This document shows, piece by piece, positions 161-14,724 of a stretch of DNA of 27,714 nucleotides. The notes below the pieces were generated by a model that worked only from the letters and a program-made list of their open reading frames with translations, had not been told where the DNA came from and searched no databases. This stretch comes from a virus: positions 1 to 27,714 of IMG/VR virus record IMGVR_UViG_3300033144_000111; one strand, given 5' to 3'. The stretch's first letter is position 1, and each line of letters starts with the position of its first letter. Both the position numbers and the translations under genes were made by a program.

Positions 161-497
161 GTTTGATATTGACGATTGGTTTAGGGATAAGATTACCGGA
201 CTATCCTTCAAGGCAAGACAAGAGTTAATATACGACATTGCCTCTGTGGTTGAGTACCTTCCTGTGTCTAACGGATGGTCTCAAGAGGTATACGGAGTCA
301 TCTATTCTATAGATAAGTTTTACGTTTTAGAATATCTAAAACAAAATGAAGAGATACCACTCATAGTTGACATAGACTTTGTCGAATGTGATGAATACTT
401 AGATGCAATAATTGACAACAAAACAATTAAATCATATTATAATGTTGAACGAACACATAACCCCAACACACAAAGAACTGCTGAAGAAAGCAGTTAA
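126..497 (+). CDS. hypothetical protein, 123 aa
   Basis: I do not recognise this protein. It starts at an ATG overlapping the end of the VRR-NUC gene by 35 bases, and its own end overlaps the likely start of the DnaA-like gene by 56 bases. It is acidic, with mixed helix and strand character; the middle (residues about 45-90) has hydrophobic strand-like runs such as VYGVIYSI and IPLIVDIDFV, with no transmembrane segment or signal peptide. The last 20 or so residues, encoded in the overlap, are polar and low in hydrophobics. No catalytic motif is visible. Its place between a nuclease and a DNA-binding protein suggests an accessory role in phage DNA metabolism, by context only. Confidence 0.6.
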   Translation: MDLEQRYIEASRFDIDDWFRDKITGLSFKARQELIYDIASVVEYLPVSNGWSQEVYGVIYSIDKFYVLEYLKQNEEIPLIVDIDFVECDEYLDAIIDNKTIKSYYNVERTHNPNTQRTAEESS

Positions 498-975
498 CTT
501 TCATTTTGAATGCGACATAGATAACCCGTGTCGTGAACGAAAGTATGTTAATGCACGAATGACATTCGCATACATTATGAAGAAGAGAGGATACAGTCTA
601 TCAAGTATCGGACGTATGCTCGTAAAGAATCACGCAACAATCATTCATTACCTAAAGAATGTAGAATGGTATATGAAAACAGATGCAGAATTCAGGGAAA
701 ACTTTAATAATGTATACCAAGACACGTATTTAGATGACGAATCTATACATCTTTTAGACACGGATGCGTTAATAAAAGAAGTATTCTCTTTGCGGAAAGA
801 AAATAAATCACTATATTCGCTTATAGAAGGTCTAAAAAAAGAACAATTAGAGTCTAAAAGAGACCGGGAAAGATTTTCAAGTATCTTTGAAATGGTGAGA
901 CAGAGAACCCACGAAGGTAGTGAGGAGCAGGTTCTTAAAAAATTAAATCATATGTACAATGGACTATACAGTTGA
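442..975 (+). CDS. DnaA domain IV-like DNA-binding protein with helical C-terminal extension
   Basis: Starting from the ATG at 442 gives 177 residues. Residues about 11-75 resemble the C-terminal DNA-binding domain of DnaA: a VNARMTFAYIM helix, then SLSSIGRML, then KNHATIIHY, matching the DnaA pattern of a variable helix-turn-helix followed by the (D/N)H-x-T-hydrophobic-hydrophobic-H DnaA-box reading motif. There is no AAA+ ATPase: no Walker A or B is present. Residues about 100-160 are strongly helical and charged (SLRKENKSLYSLIEGLKKEQ), a likely coiled coil for dimerisation. It overlaps the next gene by 17 bases. It may bind DnaA-box-like sites in the phage or host origin and act in replication initiation or control; this is inference. 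An upstream in-frame TTG at 412 would add ten residues but lies deeper in the previous gene. Confidence 0.72.
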   Translation: MLNEHITPTHKELLKKAVNFHFECDIDNPCRERKYVNARMTFAYIMKKRGYSLSSIGRMLVKNHATIIHYLKNVEWYMKTDAEFRENFNNVYQDTYLDDESIHLLDTDALIKEVFSLRKENKSLYSLIEGLKKEQLESKRDRERFSSIFEMVRQRTHEGSEEQVLKKLNHMYNGLYS

Positions 976-1195: not shown

Positions 1196-1387
1196 ATGAC
1201 AAAACCATCAGCATACGATAACGAAAGGCTTAAGCATATCAACCACCTGATGGAAGAAATCAACGACTCCGCTACCGAAATCTACGAAAGCTTAATCGAT
1301 AGAGAATTTGATGAACTGAAAGATGTAATATCAAAACTCATAACACGATTAAAAGAAATTCAAAACTCAGTAGAGGATGAAATATAA
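1196..1387 (+). CDS. small helical hypothetical protein, 63 aa
   Basis: The ATG directly abuts the TAA of the previous gene, and the end overlaps the metallophosphoesterase start by 11 bases; both junctions indicate translational coupling. The product is acidic and almost entirely helical, with heptad-like hydrophobics (LKHINHLMEEINDSATEIYESL, then LKDVISKLITRLKEIQNSV), so a coiled-coil dimer or small adaptor is likely. I recognise no family and no catalytic residues. Confidence 0.6.
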   Translation: MTKPSAYDNERLKHINHLMEEINDSATEIYESLIDREFDELKDVISKLITRLKEIQNSVEDEI

Positions 1388-2093
1388 TGACTTTAGACCA
1401 AGACTAAAAGGAAACAAGAAGGTTGCATACGACTTCATTAATAGCAGGGAGCGTAGGATACTCGTCATTGGCGATATCCACGCTCCATTTACTCTCCCTC
1501 AATACCTTGACTTCTGCAAGGATATGTATGCAAGACACAATTGTAACCAAGTAATTTTTATTGGAGACATAATCGACAATCACTATGCATCCTTTCACAC
1601 CACAGACCCCGATGGTATGGGTGGTGGAGATGAACTTGACTTAGCAATCAAGCACGTAAAGAAATGGAAGAAGGCGTTTCCTGTTGCTGATGTGTGTATA
1701 GGAAACCACGATAGGATTATAATGCGCAAGGCATTTGATTCACAGATACCAAGCCGTTGGATTAAATCCTACAACGAGGTACTCGGAACTAAATGGAATT
1801 GGGTAGAGCAGATTGTTTATGATGGCGTTCAGTATGTACACGGAGAAGGTGGTACTGCAAGAACTAAATGCAAGAACGATATGATGTCTACGGTTCAGGG
1901 ACACATACATACACAGGCATACACAGAATGGACTGTCGGAAAGAACTTCAAGATATTTGGAATGCAGGTAGGGTGCGGAATAGATTCTAAATCATACGCA
2001 GCCGCTTACGCAAAGAACTTTAAAAAGCAAGCTATTGGTTGTGGTGTTGTCATCGGAGGACACACCGCAATAAATTGTATGATGGACTTATAA
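1377..2093 (+). CDS. calcineurin-like metallophosphoesterase
   Basis: A 238-residue protein with the ordered metal-binding motifs of the calcineurin-like phosphoesterase fold: GDIHAP (D33, H35), GDIIDNH (D64, with D67 and N68 after it), GNHD (N110, H111) and GHIHT (H176, H178). A further HGEGG at 155-159 probably supplies another ligand. The family binds two divalent metals and hydrolyses phosphodiesters or phosphomonoesters. Phage members are proposed to act on DNA ends, nucleotides or RNA; the substrate cannot be read from sequence. It is cytoplasmic, with no signal or membrane segment. The start overlaps the previous gene by 11 bases, and its TAA shares its last A with the ATG of the next gene, so it is probably co-translated with the adjacent putative nuclease. 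Confidence 0.88.
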   Translation: MKYNDFRPRLKGNKKVAYDFINSRERRILVIGDIHAPFTLPQYLDFCKDMYARHNCNQVIFIGDIIDNHYASFHTTDPDGMGGGDELDLAIKHVKKWKKAFPVADVCIGNHDRIIMRKAFDSQIPSRWIKSYNEVLGTKWNWVEQIVYDGVQYVHGEGGTARTKCKNDMMSTVQGHIHTQAYTEWTVGKNFKIFGMQVGCGIDSKSYAAAYAKNFKKQAIGCGVVIGGHTAINCMMDL

Positions 2094-2506
2094 TGAGGTT
2101 TGAATCCAATGCAGATTTATCGAGAGAGAGAAGAGCAATAGAAACATTCGTCAGGATGTTTGGTGGCTCTTATAAAAAACTTGACCCTAACGATGTAGAC
2201 TATAGGGTTTATGACAAGGATGGTAAACTCATATCCTTTGTCGAAGTAAAGGGCAGACTTAGACCATACGAGAAAGCATATCCTCTTCCTGTCGCAGCAC
2301 GTAAGCTTGTTAAGTTAGCAGATAAAAGACTAAACCCTGTGATGATATGGGCCTGTGATGATGGGATAGTTTATTCACGCATCACGTCACTATTAGGAAC
2401 TATCAGATGGGGTGGCAGGAAACCACGTGCGGGTTCATACAACGACCAAGAACTAATGGCATACTTTGATAAGGCCGACAACTTTAAATACATACCCTAT
2501 GTCTGA
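2093..2506 (+). CDS. probable PD-(D/E)XK-fold nuclease, 137 aa
   Basis: I chose the ATG at 2093, where TAATG joins it to the phosphoesterase stop; a longer start at 2039 would run 54 bases into that gene and add non-conserved residues. The N-terminal half matches a PD-(D/E)XK arrangement: helix ERRAIETFVRMFG with E17, then DVDYRVYD with D36, then a strand carrying SFVEVKGR with E51 and K53. The C-terminal half has NPVMIWACDDGIVYSRI, a plausible later core strand of the fold. Such small phage nucleases are often Holliday-junction resolvases or nicking enzymes. This fits next to VRR-NUC and phosphoesterase genes, but the subclass is a guess. Confidence 0.68.
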   Translation: MRFESNADLSRERRAIETFVRMFGGSYKKLDPNDVDYRVYDKDGKLISFVEVKGRLRPYEKAYPLPVAARKLVKLADKRLNPVMIWACDDGIVYSRITSLLGTIRWGGRKPRAGSYNDQELMAYFDKADNFKYIPYV

Positions 2507-2594: not shown

Positions 2595-2601
2595 AGACAC
2601 T
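2585..2601 (-). repeat. 17-bp hairpin motif, copy 1 (convergent junction)
   Basis: The sequence GTGTCTTTGAAGACACT is identical to three other copies in this window. Stem GTGTCT/AGACAC closes a TTGA tetraloop (TCAA in the late transcript). It sits where the + and - strand genes meet: the TGA of the 31-residue gene falls within it and the TAG of the giant late gene overlaps its last bases. Neither side has a T-run, so it is at best a weak intrinsic terminator alone. Confidence 0.8.
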
Positions 2602-5600
2602 ATTCAAGGTCTCCATATATCTCGTCCTTTATATCTCTTTTCATTTGTCTAACCTCTGCTTTTATTTCAGCAGCAGGGTCTTCCATGTCACCGTAAATCT
2701 CATCGTAAAGGTCAGGCATATACTTCTTCATATCGGTCTTAGACATATCTTTTCTTTTACTTCCTGAAGACTTTCTTTTTCTCTTACCGTATCCCGGACG
2801 ATATGAAGGTGTTATACCAAACGCATCATAGAAGTCTTCTTCCTCTCCTTGACCTGTCATTATATTAAACAAACCTATTGGTGAATCAAACTGAGCACCA
2901 ACTGCAATTTCAAATATTGGCTTTATTGCTCTGATAACATTACCATCAGACGTGTCTTTAAATGCTTTCTCTATTTTTCTACCAACAGATATAAATGGGT
3001 TGACCCCTTCACTTGTTGGCCTTCTCTCTCCGCTAAGTTTATTGATAGCGCCTTCAGCAAAAGAACCAAACAAAGGTATTTGATAAATAAGATTAAGACC
3101 TAATGCTGCATCTCTTACTGCTCTCCAAGCCCTGTCCTTATCTTCACTATCTCCTTTTATTAAAGCACCTGAATACGATGCCATTGTAAACAATGCGTTT
3201 GCTACAGATATATTTAAGGCAAGCGCTCTGTAATCTTTTAAGTCTCCGAACTTACCTTTTTTAACATCCATATTTTTCACTATGTTGTTTGCTGATTGGA
3301 ATGCTTTATTTAATTGTAAGTACAATGTGCTTCCAAACATAGTAAAGAACTTTCCTGCAAACCCTTGGTCCTGTTGAAGAGCAACCTTCTCTGTGCTTCT
3401 TCTTGTTTGCTGAGTTTGGTTGTAGTTATTAAACAATGCAAGGGCCTCTGCTTTAGACATACCATTCTTTATGGCTCTATTGTATACCGCCTTGTATCCA
3501 AGTACACCCGCAATATCACCCGCTACTGTAAACAAAGCTGCACCTGTATCAAAAGCACGCTTCAGTCTACCACCTCTGCCTTGTGATGCCCCTAATTTTT
3601 TATAGGTTCTACCACCTGATTCTAAACCAAACAAGTCACCCGACATACCGCTTCTAATACGATTCTTAAATGTAGCTGATATCTCTTTAGCCTCTCTTAC
3701 CTGTTTAGGTATAGTCGCTAATACATAAGCATAGTCTGCTATAAAACCTAAAGCATCTACCACAGGAGTCTTTCTGTTTGAGAATAACTGATAGTCTTCG
3801 TATGCCTGCACAAATGAAGTGGCCTGCTTCAGAACTTGAATAGGCTTAAATGCAAGAGCAAAACCTGTGAAGTTCCTTTGCAACCAACTAACAACACCAC
3901 CCTCAGGCTTAGGTCCTGAATCAGGATTAATTGCGTAGTTAATCATCTGTCTAAACACCGGTCCTAATCCTGTAGTTTCTAATAGAGTTTGTATAGCCTC
4001 TGATTTGTACACCTCATTCATTTGCTTAACACCAAGTGCATAAGCTTTGTATCTCTCCATACCTTGAATGTGGTTCTCAACTACATCAGTAAACGAATCA
4101 CCAATAAAAATATCTCCCGTAGTATCTGTTCTTTCCTGCAGAGCAGGAGAAGTGTCAGCAGTAAATATCTTAGCGAAGTCTCCGCTAATCATATCCTGAA
4201 CCTGAGCGTTCTTACTTATTGTTTTTGTAGGGAAGTAGTTCTCTACATAACCTAAGTTTACATCATTTGCCTGTACGAATACATCATTCACTTGATTGTA
4301 GTATTCGTTACTAAAGTAATCTACTATCTGCTCAGCAATTGCAATACCTTCAGGTCCAATGAAGTTTTTAATTCGCTCCATTTTTGCATCATCAAAACCT
4401 TGTCTCTCAAGTTTTTTTCTTTGTAATGGATTTAATGACAAAGCATAGACCCTCATTGCTTGGTCTCTATTAAGAGCCTCAGTAAACTCAGCTTCAGTCT
4501 TACCATTCCTTACCCCCTCAAGGGTTAGGGTATCAGTACCTAATGTATACTTCCACTTTCTCCAAGCTTTTCCTAAAACAGATTCAGTAACATCATTCAG
4601 TTTATCTTCCTGCTCGAACACACCCTGCAGGTTTCTTTCATCCATATCATTCAGTTGGTTATAGAATACCTTAGTAAACATTCCATCTTTACCTCTGTCT
4701 AATATGTTTGTAATTGTACCTAAATGCTGAATTGTGTTTCGTAGAAACTTTTGAATCTGATTAGCATTGTACTTGTTATTTCTTTTGAGGTTGCTAAATA
4801 AATCTTTAACACCCTGAACAAACCCTTTGTCCTTAAACGATTCTATAATAGAATCATTGTCACGTTGTATCTGACGTTTGTTTTTTAGGCTACCATTCTC
4901 ATCATAAAGTTCTGAGTAATCGTCCTCTATCTGTTCATCAAATTGTGACTGAACATTTTTTATCGCTTCTCGCCTTGCGGCTTTTCTGTTGTTTAATCTT
5001 GCAATAGATTCTGCCCTTGTTTGTTTTACCTCATCAAACAATTGCGAAACCTCTTCCAACTCCATACCCATAACATCAGAGAATGTATCAAGCGCAAGCT
5101 GCTTATCTATCAGCGCTCTCTCTTGTCTTGTTATTTTTTCTCCTGCCTCTACCTTAGCAATAGCTTCAGTAAGAGAGGCCTCATCAACCTCTGCTTGTAG
5201 CGCTGCAAGTCCTGCAACATCATTGTTCTTAACCATCTTAAGAACCTTTTTAACCTCAGCAAAGTATGCCTGACCTATAGCATCAAGACCTGCGCTTCTT
5301 CTTCTTTTAGAAGATGTCTGTGCAGCCTTAGCCTTTTTCTCTACAAGCTTTTGAATCTTGTCGATTAACTGATTCTTTATAACCTGACGTTGTGCTTCAA
5401 CTTGGTTTAATACAACCTCTACTTGACCATTAAAATTCTTTGGTGTAGTTTCATTAATAGCTTTTAGAAGTTTATTTATAGCAGCATTAGAATAGTTCTT
5501 AGACTTTGGCAACGCCTTTCTAATAAACATTCTTAATTGACGTTGTGCATCAGTAATGTTTTTGATTGCACCCTTTCTTTCACGAAGTCTCTTTCTTATG

Positions 5601-8600
5601 TTTCCTATCTCCTGCCTAACCTCAGGGTTACTTCTAATACCAAGACTTCTGTCTAATGCATTCCTAAGTTCCAACTGTGTTTGTTCAGGTTGTGATTGGT
5701 ATGTTGGGTCAGCTTGAAGTATCTCTTGAGCCTTTGCTCTTATCTCTGAGAATGACTTAGTTCTTGTAGTACCTCTACCACCTCTTGGTCCTTCTGTAGA
5801 GAATCTGTTAACCTTATCTCTAACCCTGTTAAATAAATCAACACCAACATTAGAGCCACCCTCTACATTACCAAACTCTCTCGGCATAGGAGTAAGTAAA
5901 TCTATCCTTACCTCCATTGCATTGTTGATAGCGGTAGCCTTAAACCCTTTTTCTTTTAACACCACACGGATAGCATCATCACTAAACCCTGCTTCACGTG
6001 CTCTTTGTATGAGAGAATCGATTGATGGGTTAGGTGATGAGGTCATAAGCTGCAACTCGTTTGACAGTCCTTTAACCTCTGCATCTTTAAACAATTTATT
6101 CTCAGACATCAGGTCTACAACAACACCCTCTAAGAATTTATCGAAATCAATATTCTGTAATTCTTCAGATGTCATCTCGCTTATACCAACAAGCTTCTTA
6201 ACGAAGTCGAACAAATCATTCAACCAAGTCTTAAAGTTTCTTTGCTGCGCAGCAGTCGCAAATGATTCTCCCTTATCACCAATAGCAGTAGCAAGTGCTT
6301 CTTCAAGGATATAGTTTCTTATGTCTTGTTCAGACATACCATCCTTCTTCATTTGTTTAATTACTCTTTGGTACTCTTTATTGTTCTCAATCTGAGAAAC
6401 ATATTCAGTACCCTCTACTAATTCAAGACCACGTTTGTACGCCTCAGGATTCATCTCCTTCGAAACGTTCATCCAAATGTGTCCGAACTCGTGAATAGGT
6501 GTATTGTAATTTTCGAGTGCGGGGTTTAAATAAAGTTTACCCTGATATACTGCACCATATATCTTTTGATTTTTAGTAGCAAGCTTCTTAGCATTTAGGT
6601 CACTAACCAAATCATCAAACGCTTGTTGGTCTGTCATCACCTCAACACCGGGGAAAGCCTTGCTTAATCTATTTATAAACTTCTCATACATTGTTGCGGT
6701 TGGTGTCTCCACAACATCTGTTCTGCTTGCTTGCATAGATGCTCTTCTCATCTCAGCAGAGCGTGCCTGACCTGCGCTATATTTTTTGCCCTTGTCATCT
6801 GTTACAACTCCCGCAACCTTAGCATCAATGGTATTACGATGTCTTTTACTTACCGTCCAAAACGGAGCAGTTTCCTCCATCATACCAACTGCCTTACCTC
6901 TTAAGTAGAACGGATAGTTTCTATGCTCTTTTAAACCTCTTTCCTTTTGCTCTTCAGGAGTTATTACCGCTTCTTTATAGGTCTCGTTTGTAACAGGGTT
7001 TCCATTCTTATCGGTAACCTGCAGCACCATAGTCATAGCCCCCATAGGGAGGTCTGACACAAACTGTTCTACATTTTCTTGGCGCACAGACTCTTGAGAT
7101 ATTCCTTCAGATTGGAATAATCTACCAACCCCTGTAGATGCTTCTACATTTTGAGACGGAAGTACATCTCTAAATATCTTTGCTTTTGTATCAACATCTA
7201 ACTGAGCAAAGCCCTCTGCAAAGTCATCAATGTTTTGAGATTCTGCTGCTATCTTGTGAACAAAATCCGTCTTAGGTCCATATACCTTACTTTGAATATC
7301 AGCCATCATTGCCTCAAAAAGTTGAGGTCTGTTAGGAGACTCTTTAACTTTGTCTATTAATGTGTCTAATAGAACAAGATTAGAATCAACTGCTGAAGGT
7401 GACATATTGTATACCACACTATAGTCTGCATTAACTGCACCCTTGGCAATACCTTCTGCTGCGGATTGACTTATAGATGCCCAAGCTACTTCTCCGAATA
7501 AACCCTCTTGTAATGGAAAGAATGGACCGCCCATTCTTTTATCGTCAACCTTTAATTGGTCTGCCATAACAAAGTTAACTCGCTTACCAACAAGGTCATT
7601 CAATCCCATCTTGCTTACCTTGTTCGCAAGTTCTGTGTTTTCAGTAACAGTTACAGGGTAAACCTTTGCAGGTGTTTCTACTGTAACTGATTCAGATTCA
7701 ACCTCAGGTTGTACCTGCTCCATTAACTTAGTTGCGCTTGAAACAAGTTGTTGTTTCTTTTCAGGAGATGTTTCCTGTGCATCAAGCTGAAACTGAGGGT
7801 CTGCATCATTATCAAACAAGGAGTTAAGGTCATCAACCTCTTGCTCGTTTAGTGTCTTTGAAGACACTTCTTGAGTTGTTATCTCTGTCTCAACGTCCGG
7901 CTGAGTTTGTTCTTGGATTTCGGGTGTAGTCGTTTCGGTAACTTCTCCCTCGATGGATACTCCTGTTCCCACCGGGCTGCTATCTCCGGTTTGTTCTTGT
8001 GCATCCACGCTCTCTGTGCTTGGCTTTTGAATGGCATCGAATTTCTGTGTTAAAATATCACTAACCTCCTCATCATTCTCTACACCTATAGTTGACTTCA
8101 TAAGTCTGTTTGAACTCATCTTATTCAACTCAGCAAGGAACTGCTCTTTGGTTAGTGATTTACCGTTTATCTTATATTTTTGTATTTGACCACGAACATC
8201 TGTGTCTGTTGATTGACCAAAGACACCTGCGCCTGCAAGTTGTGTACGTTCGTTTTCAGGTCTTAGTTTTTTTGTAGTAGCTATCTCGCTAATCTCAGCA
8301 TTGATTTCTGATATCGTTCTTGAGAAAACGTTTTGCCTGTTAGGTGTTGAAGATAACTCATCACGAGCAGCCAACAATTCCATTAGTCTCGTCTCAACAT
8401 CTGAACTTGTGTTGGATGAAAAAATATTTCTGCCGCTACCTACATTTAAAAGTTCTCTTGCTTCTCTTCTTAATCCTACGTTCTCTTGTATTCTTTGGTT
8501 TTGCTCACTTGAAATCTTTCCTAAAGATTCCATATTGTTAGCCCAACTTGAGATTCGGGAATCAGATGCCGACTCCATAGCTATACCGTCAATAGAACTA

Positions 8601-11263
8601 AGCTTATTTCCTATATCAACATTGTTCTTTGCTCTACCATCAAGGTAAACATTTACTGCAGCCATAGGTGCTTGACTACCAATACCACCTATACCTTCAG
8701 CCATAATTTCTGTTATGCTTAACTCTTGTCCTGCCACAACCTGAGCGGCTGCTTCACCAATCATCTCTGTTGCAGGGTCAAACACAACTCTTTCTGTTGC
8801 ACCAACGGCAACTCTTTTTAGGGGAGATGCTAACGAACCACCTACCTTAAATACTCTACCCGCTAATCCTGCAGATAAGAAATCAATAGCACCGATAGTA
8901 AGTCCACGCTTCAGCCCTACCTCTTTGCCTTCTGCCCAAACCTCTTCATCTTGTAGTGCAAGAATTAATTGCTCAGGGTCTTGGACATTATATTTTTTTC
9001 GTGCCGCCTCCATTACGGCATTAGTATATTCTAAAGCTACGTTGGTTGCTGCGAAACCTGTACGCAAACCGTACCCTGCTCCCGTTACTGCACCGGCTGC
9101 AGTACCCGCACCGGGCACTACACTACCAACTACTGCACCTGTACCTGCTCCTGTGGCGGTACTTCCTGAAATAATCTTCCACCCATATGGAAGCATTTGT
9201 CCTATTGAGTTAGCAGCAAAAGCTAAAGCCAATTCTCCGGGGTCATCTTTGAAGACATCCCAAGCCTCTGCAAAACCACGTGCTTGATGGTATCGAGATT
9301 CAGCCCTTCCCATTTTACCTGTCTCAGCTTCTTCTAAATACTTTATAATAGCGGATGCTACTTCTTTTGTGTCCGCATCATCGTCAAGGTCTTTAAGACC
9401 TAATGACATTTTTAATATCTCATTACCAACATTACCATTTGCAAGACCTTTGTCCCAAGCATTTGAAACTGCAGACCAATTCGACACGTAAGAATCACGT
9501 GAGTTCTTATCTGCCTTGGCATCAAACCAAGTTTTAGCAACCTCATATTTATTAGCGGCTTCTTCAGATACTGCCTTTGATTCTTCGTATTGTGTGATTA
9601 AAGCATTTAATGTGTTCTGCTCTTCAGGAGTTTCTGCCTTTAGTTTTTTAAGGTCTTCGCCCATAACGCCAAAGGTTTGAAGTGAAATAAGGTCCACTTC
9701 TTCTCTAAATGCTTTAGCTTCTCTATTTGCAGATATAGCAATCCCTGCTTTTTCTTGGTATCCCTTCTCAAGTTCAAGGTCAAAATCCTCTCTCACCTGT
9801 CTAAACTCTGATGCGTTTACAGATGGTCTAAGCTTATCTGCCTCATCTTCGAGTTCCTGTATTACAGTACCGTAGTCGTTCCTCTTTCTACCGTTTACAT
9901 AGAAAGAACCAAACTCTTCTTTTTGTGCATCAGATAAATCCTCTTTTAAATAAGGACCTTTCTTCAAGAAGTCAACAGTATTCATCAGGTCTTCATACCT
10001 GTCATATTGCTTCTTATACGTATTATAATCTAACCCTCTATCCTTGTAGAATTTATTAGCTTGATAGTCAAGAGTGTTTGCATCCTTCCAAGAACCCTCG
10101 GCAAAATCAATGGCTTCTTGCTCTGTATCGAATTCAAATACCTCTCCTCGTTTTAATGCTTCCTCATAAGCCTGATTACCGCTTAACTCAGACCACCACA
10201 ATGGATGAGAGCCATACTCTTTCGTTGTACTCTTAGGAAATAGTGTAGGGTACACCACATTCTTGCCATCAATATTGGCTTGTTCAAATAGCACAGTAGA
10301 CTCTGTACCATCTTCGTTAATTCTACCACCATTAGAGCGCATCTCACGAACTTTCGCTGCTCTCTCTATACCATCTAACTCTGAAACATTTAAAGGCTCT
10401 TGAGGCTTGTTTGCTTTGCTTGATACAAACGACTTTAATTTTGCAGCCTCACCCTCATTAGAGAAGAATGTTTGAAGGTCAATCTCTTTTGTAGTACCAT
10501 CACTTGCGGTTACAGTTAAAGCATCACCGATTCCCGTCTCTTGAAATATAAAGCCATATCTACCATAAAGATTATTGAAGTATCCGATTGCCTCTTCCTC
10601 ATCCAACTCCATAGAGTCAGCATTAGTAAGGCTTAGTGCTTTTTGAAAGTCATCAGATACAATAGCTTCTTGGCGTTCTTGGTTTTCTTTTTGCGCTTGC
10701 TTAGCAAGTCTCTGTGCCTTTTCGTCCTCTATTCTCTGTATTTCTGCAGCCTGTGATTCTTCTAAGAGTTTTGCATATTCAAGGTCAGCCTTTCTTTGTG
10801 CGTTCGCACGTTTGTAATCTTCTCCGCTAAACAAAGTTTTCTGCTGCATACCATATACAGACATAGGCGCACCTTGTCCCATCGTAGCCGCTTGCTGATG
10901 GAATACTTCTGTTGGGTCTACATAGTCATCAGCACGAGGGTCTGTTCCAATAACCTCATAACCATCAATAACTATAGGTTGAGACTCAGGGATTTCATAA
11001 TCGAACGAATCCAAAGAACCATCCTCCAAGTTTGATTCCGATTCTTCTTTTTTTTTTTGACCGTTGATGTTGTCAAGAAAATCTTTTATACCAACATCCT
11101 GTTTGTAAGAAGGGTCTAAGTCAGTAATGTAGCCATACATATTTGCGGCATACTTCCTGTCTCCCATACTAATCTTAAAGTCGTCAAACGAAACATCGTC
11201 TTGATACGTTGAATCATTTGAACTAATGTATTCGTATAAACTCTGTAAATATTCCTCGTTCAT
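2600..11263 (-). CDS. giant polyvalent-type internal virion protein with zincin-like motif, 2887 aa
   Basis: The largest gene in the window and the last of the late operon. Residues 1-67 hold two related short helical units (SLYEYISSNDSTYQDDV and MYGYITDLDPSYKQDV). Residues about 315-392 have a DGTESTVLF...VVYPTLFP...FAEGSWKD block resembling one seen in large phage ejection proteins. Residues about 700-740 are Gly/Ala-rich and hydrophobic, a possible membrane-inserting segment. Residues about 1090-1140 form a Thr/Glu/Gln-rich linker. HEFGH at 1591-1595, with a downstream EEALATAIGDKG at 1654-1665, looks like a zincin metalloprotease site. Residues about 1950-2060 are coiled-coil, about 2465-2720 a conserved C-terminal block (FKPIQVLKQATSF, NYNQTQQTRRS), and about 2825-2840 a basic KRKRKSSGSKRKD tail. 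By family knowledge such proteins enter the host with phage DNA; the protease role is inferred. It starts 4 bases after the previous stop. Confidence 0.75.
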   Translation of the reverse strand: MNEEYLQSLYEYISSNDSTYQDDVSFDDFKISMGDRKYAANMYGYITDLDPSYKQDVGIKDFLDNINGQKKKEESESNLEDGSLDSFDYEIPESQPIVIDGYEVIGTDPRADDYVDPTEVFHQQAATMGQGAPMSVYGMQQKTLFSGEDYKRANAQRKADLEYAKLLEESQAAEIQRIEDEKAQRLAKQAQKENQERQEAIVSDDFQKALSLTNADSMELDEEEAIGYFNNLYGRYGFIFQETGIGDALTVTASDGTTKEIDLQTFFSNEGEAAKLKSFVSSKANKPQEPLNVSELDGIERAAKVREMRSNGGRINEDGTESTVLFEQANIDGKNVVYPTLFPKSTTKEYGSHPLWWSELSGNQAYEEALKRGEVFEFDTEQEAIDFAEGSWKDANTLDYQANKFYKDRGLDYNTYKKQYDRYEDLMNTVDFLKKGPYLKEDLSDAQKEEFGSFYVNGRKRNDYGTVIQELEDEADKLRPSVNASEFRQVREDFDLELEKGYQEKAGIAISANREAKAFREEVDLISLQTFGVMGEDLKKLKAETPEEQNTLNALITQYEESKAVSEEAANKYEVAKTWFDAKADKNSRDSYVSNWSAVSNAWDKGLANGNVGNEILKMSLGLKDLDDDADTKEVASAIIKYLEEAETGKMGRAESRYHQARGFAEAWDVFKDDPGELALAFAANSIGQMLPYGWKIISGSTATGAGTGAVVGSVVPGAGTAAGAVTGAGYGLRTGFAATNVALEYTNAVMEAARKKYNVQDPEQLILALQDEEVWAEGKEVGLKRGLTIGAIDFLSAGLAGRVFKVGGSLASPLKRVAVGATERVVFDPATEMIGEAAAQVVAGQELSITEIMAEGIGGIGSQAPMAAVNVYLDGRAKNNVDIGNKLSSIDGIAMESASDSRISSWANNMESLGKISSEQNQRIQENVGLRREARELLNVGSGRNIFSSNTSSDVETRLMELLAARDELSSTPNRQNVFSRTISEINAEISEIATTKKLRPENERTQLAGAGVFGQSTDTDVRGQIQKYKINGKSLTKEQFLAELNKMSSNRLMKSTIGVENDEEVSDILTQKFDAIQKPSTESVDAQEQTGDSSPVGTGVSIEGEVTETTTPEIQEQTQPDVETEITTQEVSSKTLNEQEVDDLNSLFDNDADPQFQLDAQETSPEKKQQLVSSATKLMEQVQPEVESESVTVETPAKVYPVTVTENTELANKVSKMGLNDLVGKRVNFVMADQLKVDDKRMGGPFFPLQEGLFGEVAWASISQSAAEGIAKGAVNADYSVVYNMSPSAVDSNLVLLDTLIDKVKESPNRPQLFEAMMADIQSKVYGPKTDFVHKIAAESQNIDDFAEGFAQLDVDTKAKIFRDVLPSQNVEASTGVGRLFQSEGISQESVRQENVEQFVSDLPMGAMTMVLQVTDKNGNPVTNETYKEAVITPEEQKERGLKEHRNYPFYLRGKAVGMMEETAPFWTVSKRHRNTIDAKVAGVVTDDKGKKYSAGQARSAEMRRASMQASRTDVVETPTATMYEKFINRLSKAFPGVEVMTDQQAFDDLVSDLNAKKLATKNQKIYGAVYQGKLYLNPALENYNTPIHEFGHIWMNVSKEMNPEAYKRGLELVEGTEYVSQIENNKEYQRVIKQMKKDGMSEQDIRNYILEEALATAIGDKGESFATAAQQRNFKTWLNDLFDFVKKLVGISEMTSEELQNIDFDKFLEGVVVDLMSENKLFKDAEVKGLSNELQLMTSSPNPSIDSLIQRAREAGFSDDAIRVVLKEKGFKATAINNAMEVRIDLLTPMPREFGNVEGGSNVGVDLFNRVRDKVNRFSTEGPRGGRGTTRTKSFSEIRAKAQEILQADPTYQSQPEQTQLELRNALDRSLGIRSNPEVRQEIGNIRKRLRERKGAIKNITDAQRQLRMFIRKALPKSKNYSNAAINKLLKAINETTPKNFNGQVEVVLNQVEAQRQVIKNQLIDKIQKLVEKKAKAAQTSSKRRRSAGLDAIGQAYFAEVKKVLKMVKNNDVAGLAALQAEVDEASLTEAIAKVEAGEKITRQERALIDKQLALDTFSDVMGMELEEVSQLFDEVKQTRAESIARLNNRKAARREAIKNVQSQFDEQIEDDYSELYDENGSLKNKRQIQRDNDSIIESFKDKGFVQGVKDLFSNLKRNNKYNANQIQKFLRNTIQHLGTITNILDRGKDGMFTKVFYNQLNDMDERNLQGVFEQEDKLNDVTESVLGKAWRKWKYTLGTDTLTLEGVRNGKTEAEFTEALNRDQAMRVYALSLNPLQRKKLERQGFDDAKMERIKNFIGPEGIAIAEQIVDYFSNEYYNQVNDVFVQANDVNLGYVENYFPTKTISKNAQVQDMISGDFAKIFTADTSPALQERTDTTGDIFIGDSFTDVVENHIQGMERYKAYALGVKQMNEVYKSEAIQTLLETTGLGPVFRQMINYAINPDSGPKPEGGVVSWLQRNFTGFALAFKPIQVLKQATSFVQAYEDYQLFSNRKTPVVDALGFIADYAYVLATIPKQVREAKEISATFKNRIRSGMSGDLFGLESGGRTYKKLGASQGRGGRLKRAFDTGAALFTVAGDIAGVLGYKAVYNRAIKNGMSKAEALALFNNYNQTQQTRRSTEKVALQQDQGFAGKFFTMFGSTLYLQLNKAFQSANNIVKNMDVKKGKFGDLKDYRALALNISVANALFTMASYSGALIKGDSEDKDRAWRAVRDAALGLNLIYQIPLFGSFAEGAINKLSGERRPTSEGVNPFISVGRKIEKAFKDTSDGNVIRAIKPIFEIAVGAQFDSPIGLFNIMTGQGEEEDFYDAFGITPSYRPGYGKRKRKSSGSKRKDMSKTDMKKYMPDLYDEIYGDMEDPAAEIKAEVRQMKRDIKDEIYGDLE
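7852..7868 (-). repeat. 17-bp hairpin motif, copy 2 (inside giant gene)
   Basis: An exact copy of GTGTCTTTGAAGACACT lies within the giant late gene, where it is translated in frame as part of VSSKT near residue 1133, in a Thr/Glu-rich linker between domains. It has A before and T after on the + strand, giving an 18-base version shared with the copy after the capsid gene. No T-run follows on the late strand, so it should not be a strong terminator. Confidence 0.85.
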
Positions 11264-11266
11264 ATA

Positions 11267-13285
11267 TTATGGTCTTGGTGCTCCGCCTCCACTTGGTCTT
11301 GGTGCATTTGAATTATTTGAACTACCATCTAATCTACCCCTACCCTTTCTTTGGGTTGTGGTTGTTTTTCTTTTACCCTTAGTTGCCAATGCTTTTTGGT
11401 CTATACTTGCTCTGTTATTTGCAAGTTCGACAAGAGTTCTTAACATATCAGCTTGCATTGCTTTTTGTTCATCACCGCTCAAGTCATCCAACATATCTAA
11501 ATCAAAGGTAGCTACTACATTTGCCCCGTCCTTTACTGTTACAGTATCATTAGTTCCACTACCCGTCTCTACTGAAAGTCCCGAAAGACCCGGTGTTGAG
11601 GCTATGAAGTTTTGAAGTAAAGGTCCTGTTTTCTCTCTTCCATTAGGAACAAACATATCAGGGGTTGCGTTAGATTTTCTAATCACCTCTCTCTTAAATG
11701 CGTCATCGAGACCCTCTTGAGATTGTGAATCAGATGCAGAGAAACCATATGAATCAGGGTTAAACGCTCTTGAGGCATCAATACCTGCGCCCGCTACAAT
11801 ATCATTAATATTTCCAATTGCTTCTCCTTTTGGTCTGAATGCGTTTGCTGCACCAATCACCCAAGAATCTTGCGCTAACAGAGTACCATCATCACCTCTC
11901 CATTTTATAGTCTCAGGATTTCTTCCGTCATTGTATGTTATAACTAAGTCATCACCTCTTCTGTCTATAGTGTCAATAGTAGGGTTATATGTTCTTAAGA
12001 AGTTTTCTGCTTCAACAACCTCGTCATCACTACCATAATACAACTTAGCTACATTCTGTACGTAATCCTCATCCTCTTTCTTTTTCTGATTCGCTTTTAT
12101 TTGAGGGCTTGTTGGTTGAGGAGGGTTCGTTGCGTAATCTCTAACAGTCTTAACTTCAGCCGTTACGTTATGTTTATTTCGTATTGCGTTACGCATATAT
12201 TGGCGGAACACCTCTTCTTGTTCTTCACCATTTGGATTTACGCTCTTATCAAAAATAGGTTGATTACTTTGAGGGTCAAGCAGAATTTTTTCAGGGTTTG
12301 CTTTTGCATCGTCTACAGAATATGTAGACGTAAACTCTTTACCGTTTGATGCCGTTCCTGCATTCTCTGTAAGGACAGATGACACAGTAAGTGGGTTTGC
12401 TGCCTGACCTGTAATCCAATCATCCTCTGCTTGTATGTAAAGGTTCATTGCCTCAAGGTCTGATTCAGGAACTCCTAACGCCCTTGCTTTATCTATATCA
12501 AATATTCTCTTACCGCTTTTATCAACCGTAAGTAGTTTTTCCATAGGATTCATAATGGTCTCAATAACACCTGATTGGGTTCTCGTTCCTATATCTCTAA
12601 TTATCTGAGTCCACTTCCCATTACCCTCTACCCACTCGGCAGTTTTAGATTCTAAATTGTATTCATTAAACTCACCCATAAGCTGACCACGTAAAGCGCT
12701 AACGCTACGTCTGTCGTTAGGGTCTGTGCTTAACTCCATTAACCCTGTTTTAGGATTTCTTACCTTCATACCAACAACTACTTTACCGGTTCTTGGGTCG
12801 GGCATAAGTTGGCTTCTGTTGAAGTTTGCAAAACCTTCTGCGTTCTCCATAAGCCATACCTCTAACTGTTGAGACGACATATCAGGATTATCATTCTTCA
12901 TACGCTCCATCTTCTTTGCGTATACATCTTGATATTCTTGCATCAACGTAAACGCTTGGTCTGTACCGTCCTGAAGGTTTTGTCTTGCAGTTAAAAAATC
13001 AGTCATATTGATATCACCTTTTTTCAAAAGGTCCTGCTGAAGTCTAACTGCTTCTGTAAGTTGACCACTATATTGTAATCCCCACTCTCTAATAGATGTA
13101 GACTCACCCTGAGGTATGTTCTCTGCTTGTTTTAAAAACTCACGGGTTTGGTCGTTAATCTCAGCAACTTTTGCATCACGCTTTGCAGCCTCTGCATTTA
13201 AAACATTACTAAGATTCTGACCTACCTCAGCCCAATTTAATTGAGCCTGCGGGTCTGTGGGTTGATATGCGTATCCTGTTGCCAT
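11267..13285 (-). CDS. putative internal (ejection) virion protein, 672 aa
   Basis: I do not recognise a named family; the call rests on context and composition. It lies between a 314-residue protein with an N-terminal hydrophobic segment and the 2887-residue giant, the same small-medium-giant order as the T7 ejection proteins gp14-gp15-gp16. It is hydrophilic and largely helical over residues 1-170 (LNAEAAKRDAKVAEINDQTREF), more mixed later, with a disordered basic/Gly/Pro C-terminus (GKRKTTTTQRKGRGR, then PRPSGGGAPRP). No catalytic motif or membrane segment is seen. The start is chosen at the ATG at 13285, the first in-frame one. A second ATG at 13314, created or displaced by a 29-bp tandem duplication, is out of frame and gives only a 25-residue peptide ending at 13237. 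Confidence 0.65.
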   Translation of the reverse strand: MATGYAYQPTDPQAQLNWAEVGQNLSNVLNAEAAKRDAKVAEINDQTREFLKQAENIPQGESTSIREWGLQYSGQLTEAVRLQQDLLKKGDINMTDFLTARQNLQDGTDQAFTLMQEYQDVYAKKMERMKNDNPDMSSQQLEVWLMENAEGFANFNRSQLMPDPRTGKVVVGMKVRNPKTGLMELSTDPNDRRSVSALRGQLMGEFNEYNLESKTAEWVEGNGKWTQIIRDIGTRTQSGVIETIMNPMEKLLTVDKSGKRIFDIDKARALGVPESDLEAMNLYIQAEDDWITGQAANPLTVSSVLTENAGTASNGKEFTSTYSVDDAKANPEKILLDPQSNQPIFDKSVNPNGEEQEEVFRQYMRNAIRNKHNVTAEVKTVRDYATNPPQPTSPQIKANQKKKEDEDYVQNVAKLYYGSDDEVVEAENFLRTYNPTIDTIDRRGDDLVITYNDGRNPETIKWRGDDGTLLAQDSWVIGAANAFRPKGEAIGNINDIVAGAGIDASRAFNPDSYGFSASDSQSQEGLDDAFKREVIRKSNATPDMFVPNGREKTGPLLQNFIASTPGLSGLSVETGSGTNDTVTVKDGANVVATFDLDMLDDLSGDEQKAMQADMLRTLVELANNRASIDQKALATKGKRKTTTTQRKGRGRLDGSSNNSNAPRPSGGGAPRP

Positions 13286-13327: not shown

Positions 13328-14272
13328 TTAACCGCCATTACCATAACCGCCATTACCATAACCGCTATTACCAAGTCCAAGTCCTCCAAAAGAATAAGGT
13401 TGTTGACCGTAGTAGAATGGGTTTGGTTGCATCCCTATATTTAAACCATTAATTGAAGGGTTTTGTAAACCATACTGTAATGGTATCCCTATATTTAAAC
13501 CATTAATTGAAGGGTTTTGTAAACCATACTGTAATGGTTGAATTTGTAAGTTGGATGGTATCTGAAATTGAGAACCACCTATCTGAGGTTGACCAATAGT
13601 TGGTGTACTACCATATAGATTAGGGTACTGTTGTCTTAATGCATCCATTCTTGGAGTAGATGGGGACTGCGTACTAACGGGTGTGACATCTGCCAACTGC
13701 TTGTTGTGCGTTCCTCCCTTACCAAACATAGGATACATTGCAACCCCTTGTTGTACAAAACTTACTGCACCCTGAAACCCTTCAGCTTTTGCTTTCTCTG
13801 CTCTTGCTCTTGCTTCAGCAGCTTCTCTTTGTTTACCTGCCACTTCGCCCAAGTCCAACTGTACATTTACATCACGATTACGAGACTCTTCCTCTATAAT
13901 CATACCTTGGATATCAGACAACTCCTCGCCCATTGCTGAGCGAATAGCACCCTGACCTTGTTGTTGAAGGGCTAATACTTTTCCTGCCGTAGTTTGAGAG
14001 CCTCTCTCACTTTCCTGACCTGCCTCAATAAGTTGAGCAGTACCTGTAAGTTCTGCTTCTCTTTGTAGTTCATACGGTTCTTTTTGAACCGCCATAGACT
14101 TAGCATAGTTCACTTCTAATCGTGCCCTTGCTTCTGCCATTTTTTGGTCGGCCTCTCTTGTTGCTCTTTCAGCCGCTTTTCTTTGACTTGATGCTTGACT
14201 AAAAGACATTGCGGTAGAAACACCTGTTGCTGCTAATCCAACACCTGCCGCTATAGTTGTAAATGCTGCCAT
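13328..14272 (-). CDS. putative internal virion protein, gp14-like, 314 aa
   Basis: Residues 3-24 are hydrophobic and small-residue rich (AFTTIAAGVGLAATGVSTAM), a possible membrane-inserting helix. Residues 25-185 are a long Ala/Glu/Arg/Gln-rich helix with coiled-coil character (AERATREADQKMAEARARLE, and AAEARARAEKAKAE at about 150-165). From about 185 the chain is Pro/Gln/Gly/Tyr-rich and probably disordered, with an exact two-fold 18-residue repeat (PLQYGLQNPSINGLNIGI) and a final run of YGNGG units. A short hydrophobic-plus-coiled-coil protein next to two larger ones matches T7 internal virion protein B in layout; sequence homology is not claimed. The ATG is one base after the stop of the acetyltransferase gene. 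Confidence 0.65.
   Translation of the reverse strand: MAAFTTIAAGVGLAATGVSTAMSFSQASSQRKAAERATREADQKMAEARARLEVNYAKSMAVQKEPYELQREAELTGTAQLIEAGQESERGSQTTAGKVLALQQQGQGAIRSAMGEELSDIQGMIIEEESRNRDVNVQLDLGEVAGKQREAAEARARAEKAKAEGFQGAVSFVQQGVAMYPMFGKGGTHNKQLADVTPVSTQSPSTPRMDALRQQYPNLYGSTPTIGQPQIGGSQFQIPSNLQIQPLQYGLQNPSINGLNIGIPLQYGLQNPSINGLNIGMQPNPFYYGQQPYSFGGLGLGNSGYGNGGYGNGG
13331..13372. repeat. 15-bp tandem repeat (YGNGG codons)
   Basis: About 2.8 units of a 15-base repeat (ACCGCCATTACCATA on the + strand), the last imperfect, at the very 3' end of the 314-residue virion gene. On the - strand they encode its terminal YGNGG-type repeats. The unit is in frame, so variation in copy number would lengthen or shorten the tail without a frameshift. 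Confidence 0.8.
13431..13538. repeat. perfect 54-bp tandem duplication, in frame
   Basis: Positions 13431-13484 and 13485-13538 are identical. On the - strand each encodes the same 18 residues (PLQYGLQNPSINGLNIGI in phase) in the disordered C-terminal part of the 314-residue virion protein. Identity at every base, including third codon positions, indicates a very recent duplication, or an assembly or amplification artefact. Confidence 0.95.
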
Positions 14273-14273
14273 A

Positions 14274-14684
14274 TTATAATACTTTTATCATCTCACTTGT
14301 GTACGAGTCGCCCTTGATATATCCAAGCTTCTCGTATGTTCCGATTAGCCCTTTGTGTTTTATCAAAGCATATGAGTATTTATACCCACTACTCTTACAT
14401 ATATTTGTTAGCGTTTCAATCAACAGTCCAATCGCTTGTTGTCTTTGTGGTTTCTTTCTGTATGTCTTACTCGAAACAATCCAATCAACCCAAGCTACTG
14501 AAGAGTTGGTAACGTAGATAAATCCTGCGCATATTGGCTCTTCTCCATCTAACACTATTACTCCGCCTGTCCCGTTGTCAGGTAAGAAATCTTTTTGTGG
14601 TGCTTCCCAACCCCAATCATCCCACCATTTTGTGAGTACATTATCGTAGTCAGATTCCACAAGTGTTCTTACGTCTAACGCCAT
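14274..14684 (-). CDS. GNAT-family N-acetyltransferase
   Basis: A 136-residue protein with GNAT-like order: an N-terminal strand-helix (VRTLVESDYDNVLTKWWDDWGW), a central sheet (GGVIVLDGEEPICAGFIYVTN, SVAWVDWIVSS), the acetyl-CoA-loop region YRKKPQRQQAIGLLIETL, and a final strand-helix (YSYALIKHKGLIGTYEKLGYIKG). The usual Q/R-x-x-G-x-G/A loop is degenerate (RKKPQRQQA), as in many phage members. It would transfer an acetyl group from acetyl-CoA to an amine; the substrate is unknown. It sits among virion genes between tail and ejection proteins, so it could modify a virion or host surface or translation target. I chose the ATG at 14684; an upstream in-frame GTG at 14723 falls inside the hairpin repeat. 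Confidence 0.78.
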   Translation of the reverse strand: MALDVRTLVESDYDNVLTKWWDDWGWEAPQKDFLPDNGTGGVIVLDGEEPICAGFIYVTNSSVAWVDWIVSSKTYRKKPQRQQAIGLLIETLTNICKSSGYKYSYALIKHKGLIGTYEKLGYIKGDSYTSEMIKVL

Positions 14685-14687
14685 ACG

Positions 14688-14695
14688 CAAAGATA
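14688..14695 (-). promoter_or_regulatory. TAnnTTTG match before the acetyltransferase gene
   Basis: TATCTTTG on the - strand matches the Bacteroidetes -7 consensus, but it ends only 3 bases from the chosen ATG and has no clear -33 TTG. If used, transcription would begin at about the start codon (leaderless) or inside the gene. It may be chance. Confidence 0.2.
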
Positions 14696-14707
14696 CTAAA
14701 ATAAATT

Positions 14708-14724
14708 GTGTCTTTGAAGACACT
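14708..14724 (-). terminator. 17-bp hairpin motif, copy 3; possible terminator
   Basis: An exact copy of GTGTCTTTGAAGACACT begins 2 bases after the stop of the preceding tail gene in late-strand order. On the - strand the hairpin is followed by AATTTATTTT, a broken U-rich tract, so it could work as a modest intrinsic terminator between the tail genes and the acetyltransferase/ejection genes. The acetyltransferase ATG lies 23 bases downstream of the hairpin. Confidence 0.55.

Follow-up and report, generated by a model that had tools for sequence, protein, structure and literature searches.

A conserved zincin-like site in a giant, probable ejection protein of short-tailed Bacteroidota phages

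A 27,714-base phage fragment from IMG/VR (record IMGVR_UViG_3300033144_000111; the window, meaning the whole stretch analysed) encodes on its minus strand a 2887-residue protein, the giant, which is probably a zincin-bearing ejection protein of a short-tailed Bacteroidota phage. Judged by sequence comparison, its HEFGH site is real and strictly constrained, and the domain that carries it is a zincin family that is absent from the curated libraries searched and fixed in a Bacteroidota podophage ejection protein. No domain is commoner in polyvalent proteins than the zincin, which is also present in the virion RNA polymerase (vRNAP) of phage N4; in that literature the targets of zincins are inferred rather than shown. 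The family described here offers a clean test case, its catalytic quartet being invariant over wide divergence. A preliminary description of the window had proposed the 2887-residue open reading frame (ORF) and, within it, a zincin-like HExxH followed by a third ligand some 60 residues on; both are borne out, and the features on which the argument turns are these:

2600..11263, minus strand: giant virion/ejection-type protein, 2887 aa; a single open frame with relatives in viral contigs and in phage MW202828
6104..6679, minus strand: zincin domain, residues about 1529-1720; boundaries shared with Gundel_1 in tblastn/blastp comparisons; AlphaFold2 (AF2) model of residues 1500-1760
6479..6493, minus strand: HEFGH, residues 1591-1595, with two putative His ligands and the putative general-base Glu; conserved 65/65 and 30/30
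6299..6301, minus strand: E1655, putative third zinc ligand; conserved 56/56, 65/65 and 31/31, and placed in helix 146-176 of the AF2 model

HEFGH is the sole HExxH within the 2887 residues, and E1655 sits 60 residues past H1595. Is the motif an accident of a long structural protein? The giant is certainly long; it also has just 10 His, and its composition predicts only 0.003 HExxH motifs. An initial alignment with Gundel_1, MW202828 and an elemo phage placed H1591, E1592, H1595 and E1655 among nine invariant columns. Scanning viral contigs with the zincin domain then recovered 80 loci, in which E1655 is invariant in 56 of 56 non-redundant domain relatives (HExxH was in the search pattern, E1655 outside it). 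Because HExxH was part of that first pattern, the survey of viral contigs was repeated with a query from the C-terminal region, residues 2250-2640, which is unrelated to the zincin, and 80 loci were chosen; one C-terminal alignment was too divergent for scanning and was narrowed. In this C-terminus-selected sample 64 of the 80 loci carry the window-type zincin, and all four residues are kept in every one of them (64/64, or 65/65 with the window; 29 non-redundant sequences at 70%). At its third position the motif differs among these loci (M, F or V), which shows that it was not forced by the selection. Of the remaining 16 loci, four are truncated on the 5' side and 12 have a different HExxH, which in 11 cases is of the elemo-like HE[VI]xHA type; some HExxH is thus kept in all 76 testable giants that share the C-terminal block. 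Bacterial genome contigs give the same picture, with E1655 present in 31/31 sequences, including the window, and H, E and H in all 30 covered sequences, but these contigs were found with the motif, and weight is placed only on E1655 (partly) and on the distant sequences. With such invariance over many distant relatives and a confidently predicted zincin-like fold, the conservation tests refute a chance HExxH, the probability of which we regard as negligible.

The fold was predicted with AF2 for residues 1500-1760 using 52 sequences (predicted local distance difference test, pLDDT, 88; predicted template modelling score, pTM, 0.83). In the model, N-terminal helices lead into three strands, after which come the helix with HEFGH and a long one bearing E1655, a layout that appears zincin-like and agrees with the order given for polyvalent metallopeptidases (MPTases), of which 12 clades have been published (Iyer et al., 2017, PMC5512222). 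The preliminary description had staked its reading on two points, the fold at residues 1591-1655 and the conservation of His and Glu in homologues: the modelled fold has the zincin layout, and H1591, E1592, H1595 and E1655 are conserved. Foldseek against BFVD returns Gundel_1 (9e-11) and elemoC (5e-4), with weaker hits to phi17:2, crAss-like and LPD-annotated proteins; the profile aligns with the elemo-type zincin over 172 columns, HExxH on HExxH (probability 94, E 2e-7), and matches N4 vRNAP weakly (probability 33, E 5e-4). Pfam, PHROGs and NCBIfam, including the Pfam MPTase, LPD, DUF6782 and M78 models, have nothing above cut-off for the whole giant or its zincin domain; across the 52 domain members, they give scattered sub-threshold or unrelated matches, and sequence searches of the PDB give nothing credible. 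The zincin reading of the domain is strongly supported. Since the general-base Glu, E1592, is invariant, catalysis is favoured over metal binding alone, and the domain would presumably both bind zinc and be catalytic.

Several relatives have more than one zincin-like motif. MW202828, the nearest isolate-like relative (L001), has two HEFGH sites in one giant, at residues 1615 and 2500, and another giant (L082) combines HEFGH and HEYGH with a HExxxH-type motif. Six loci (L053, L054, L058, L077, L086 and L140) have a second zincin type (HE[VILM]QH, DUF6782/M78-like) before or after the window-type domain, often with LPD23; homology of the window zincin to this second type (HExQH) was considered and rejected, none being found beyond the motif.

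What places this domain in an ejection protein? The giant is the third gene of a small, medium and giant set that, as in N4, closes the structural module, and the preliminary description had already noted that it follows two likely internal virion proteins; this holds for the two genes upstream:

11267..13285, minus strand: medium protein of the trio, 672 aa (position of T7 gp15 / N4 gp51); homologue 5' of the giant in 81/108 loci, weak profile match to phi40:1 gp100
13328..14272, minus strand: small protein of the trio, 314 aa (position of T7 gp14 / N4 gp52); gp99-family profile match, PHROG virion structural protein

Among 108 loci with enough upstream sequence, a homologue of the medium protein precedes the giant in 81 and one of the small protein in 71, and the ORF adjoining the giant upstream has a median length of 635 aa. 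The portal, capsid-type and other structural genes also lie upstream of the giant and run in the same direction, the portal/capsid neighborhood in which polyvalent proteins are expected; the structural genes of the window match those of Cellulophaga, Flavobacterium and Tenacibaculum podophages and of the uncultured phage MW202828. The link to virions comes from Cellulophaga phage phi40:1, in which the GenBank notes of a syntenic trio (gp099, gp100 and gp101) cite experimental tandem mass spectrometry (MS/MS). The 314-aa family matches the phi40:1 gp99 family at profile probability 97 (E 3e-11), which makes the small protein a homologue of a virion protein detected by MS/MS; the medium protein matches gp100 weakly, and the giant and gp101 are linked by position. 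For the small protein there is good support for a place in the virion; for the giant we infer it, and that protein is probably packed in the particle and ejected.

The remainder of the giant is built to a plan that is loose on one side of the zincin and rigid on the other:

9023..9202, minus strand: Gly-rich, glycine-zipper-like segment, residues 688-747, a possible membrane-active stretch; 14 of its 60 residues are Gly, and it forms a hydropathy peak
7994..9496, minus strand: conserved N-terminal block, residues 590-1090; from alignment A10
2864..4816, minus strand: conserved, mostly helical C-terminal block (C-block), residues 2150-2800; from alignment A9, with AF2 pLDDT 74 and pTM 0.75

Measured in the 35 complete members of the window clade, 1307 aa separate the zincin from the C-terminus (sd 31, range 1235-1371), whereas the part on its N-terminal side varies between 1010 and 2167 aa (sd 305). 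The Gly-rich segment noticed in the preliminary description is the N-terminal hydropathy peak of the giant, and several of its Gly residues are invariant in 25 relatives. The basic tail proposed there survives in part: a short basic stretch, RKRKSSGSKRK, lies near residue 2828, but the last 87 residues have a net charge of -3 and the basic regions are at 1801-2000 and 2501-2700. The C-block is predicted to be almost wholly helical; a fold search with it found no PDB match and was uninformative, and an LPD38 identity was rejected (hhalign probability 0.3 against LPD38-bearing relatives).

The best-known systems with a comparable trio are T7 and N4. T7 gp14, gp15 and gp16 are likewise encoded by three adjacent genes of rising size, and we know of no zincin in T7 gp16. 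That protein has about 1300 aa, as against 2887 in the window giant; the authors of the DEV study equate DEV gp71-73 with T7 gp14-16 in function (PMC10925440). The N4/DEV vRNAP trio (vRNAP being N4 gp50 and DEV gp71) is closer in design: N4 gp52, gp51 and gp50 follow the order small (150), medium (644) and giant (3500), and N4 vRNAP has a membrane-active N-terminal domain and an HExxH domain that precedes a large C-terminal part of helical structure (PMC12633501), the HExxH lying 1272 aa from the C-terminus, within the range of the window clade. It differs in its T7-like RNA polymerase domain, which Pfam, PHROG and NCBIfam scans do not recognize in the window giant. The N4 C2 region is reported to have no PDB match, as seen for the window C-block (PMC12633501), and hhalign finds no homology between the two; the likeness is therefore one of plan, not shown descent.

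Putting these elements together, we propose a set of three internal (ejection) proteins of which the giant is the largest, matching T7 gp16 and N4 gp50 in position and size. The giant would be packed in the head and exit via the tail once the small and medium proteins have formed a channel, the Gly-rich N-terminal block probably contacting the membrane. Its variable N-terminal half would lead into a zincin, with H1591, H1595 and E1655 as the Zn ligands and E1592 as the general base; beyond this, at fixed spacing, would come the mostly helical C-terminal block, some 1300 residues long. The zincin would most likely be active after the giant has unfolded, crossed the tail and refolded, and might then cleave the giant itself or a partner, releasing an envelope-anchored part from a cytoplasmic part. 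The ejection of the window giant and the substrate of its zincin are both steps that we infer, and processing of the ejection complex by the zincin is possible.

Several observations weigh against this reading: (i) Foldseek against the PDB yields no significant zincin match, the top hit being anthrax lethal factor (E 0.44); (ii) hhalign detects no homology of the trio partners to N4 gp52 and gp51; (iii) the N-terminal block of the window clade gives no profile-level alignment with the giants of phi38:1, phi13:2, Gundel and elemoA; (iv) the giants of phi38:1 (1691 aa), Panino (1829 aa) and phi13:2 (1990 aa) are shorter and have no HExxH, so that ejection in general can do without a zincin; and (v) no sign of degradation was seen in recombinant N4 vRNAP, whose HExxH domain is comparable (PMC12633501). 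One alternative, which we consider improbable, is that the domain has a zincin fold but no protease role and serves instead as a metal-dependent fold for nucleic-acid binding, structure or regulation. The N4 C-terminal domain, whose C1 part contains the HExxH, inhibits the polymerase, and the study that reports this points out that HExxH is found in non-proteases too (PMC12633501); the window domain, for its part, matches no solved peptidase significantly. A Glu that is dispensable for metal binding alone would not be expected to be as invariant as the ligands, as E1592 is.

If the zincin is a protease, what does it cut? The giant itself or a partner is our leading, still tentative, answer: the zincin would autoprocess the giant or trim the other members of the trio, in the head or after ejection, which is one form of the proposal above. 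The window-type domain is almost confined, among the loci recovered, to giant ORFs or fragments thereof, where it sits between a variable N-terminal half and the fixed C-block, and a lost zincin is replaced by another zincin. There is a precedent in P1 DdrB, for which autoproteolysis by a C-terminal MPTase before packaging was inferred; N4 vRNAP, on the contrary, is packaged unprocessed (Iyer et al., 2017, PMC5512222), the recombinant protein is not degraded, as noted above, and no cleavage site has been identified in the giant. The phages without any HExxH in their giants (phi38:1, phi13:2 and Panino) also count against self-processing. The other candidate, a host protein (defense, regulatory or envelope) cleaved early and in trans by an injected effector, seems to us rather unlikely. 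Relatives with the window-type zincin bear ART, kinase and InPase domains, which are classic early effectors, and for some polyvalent MPTases an effector role has been proposed (Iyer et al., 2017, PMC5512222). Some virion giants, moreover, lack the zincin, and the domain would therefore be an addition to the ejection core. Yet no data point to any host target, defense and cell-wall proteins included; no small stand-alone form of the domain was seen among the loci recovered, gene fragments aside; and the fixed distance to the C-terminus links the domain to the ejection protein and speaks against a free cargo slot. Because of this confinement to giants and the fixed spacing of the C-block, the giant and its partners are favored as targets over a host protein, if only slightly. 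More speculatively, and with considerable doubt, a large uncatalogued class of Bacteroidota podophages may use the conserved zincin and helical C-block as a fixed processing module that cuts the giant after envelope passage, N4 vRNAP being one specialized form of a general zincin-bearing ejection protein.

The preliminary description also called the giant polyvalent-type, which stands for its relatives more than for the protein itself. Relatives with the window-type zincin bear ART-PolyVal, Kinase-PolyVal, InPase, LPD1, LPD5, LPD23 and LPD38 domains; in the window giant the zincin is the sole identifiable domain, none of these polyvalent domains is detectable above cut-off and no LPD38 alignment was obtained, so the label rests on relatives and context. 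With the published polyvalent proteins that have a zincin-like MPTase, the giant shares its size, a late/virion neighborhood and HExxH plus a Glu on the second helix; it differs in having the zincin only and no match to a Pfam polyvalent model (PMC5512222).

Cultured phages offer both sides of a comparison. Tenacibaculum phage Gundel_1 gp074 has the same zincin (34% identity, HEFGH and the third Glu), and the Flavobacterium elemoA giant has a divergent one (HEIFH); no similarity of either to the window giant was found outside the zincin. The giants phi38:1/phi40:1 gp101, phi13:2 gp127 and Panino CDS0069 occupy the equivalent place in the structural module; no N-block profile homology to them was detected, and those of phi38:1, phi13:2 and Panino have no HExxH and offer a zincin-free comparison. 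Besides the cultured zincin relatives (Gundel_1 and the elemo phages) there are prophage-like loci. The one in Aquimarina longa SW024 (L194), a cultured Flavobacteriaceae host, has homologues of the window 1533-, 308-, 265- and 149-aa proteins preceding a 2670-aa zincin giant. CP070801.1 (L172), assigned to Candidatus Aenigmatarchaeota bin1364, contains portions of two giant genes together with two phage structural genes that share 48-52% identity with those of the window; these phage genes of an "archaeal chromosome" are probably misassembled or misbinned fragments. In gut phage MT835470 (L008, 16336-18763), an 809-aa ORF with HEFAH lies beside several very large ORFs and matches the zincin weakly (E 0.3).

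Three further regions of the window deserve mention:

14274-14723, minus strand: 149-aa GNAT-like ORF with a GTG start, just before the internal virion genes; Pfam Acetyltransf_1 below cut-off
412-975, plus strand: 187-aa ORF with a stretch resembling DnaA domain IV (HATIIHYLKNVEW), read by eye
1377-2093, plus strand: metallophosphoesterase-like ORF (GDIH...GNHD), overlapping a second ORF at 2039-2506, plus strand

Both plus-strand ORFs of the last entry converge on the giant gene. A homologue of the GNAT-like ORF lies upstream of the giant in 36/108 loci, that of Aquimarina longa among them, and in MW202828 the gene in the equivalent position is annotated as an N-acetyltransferase.

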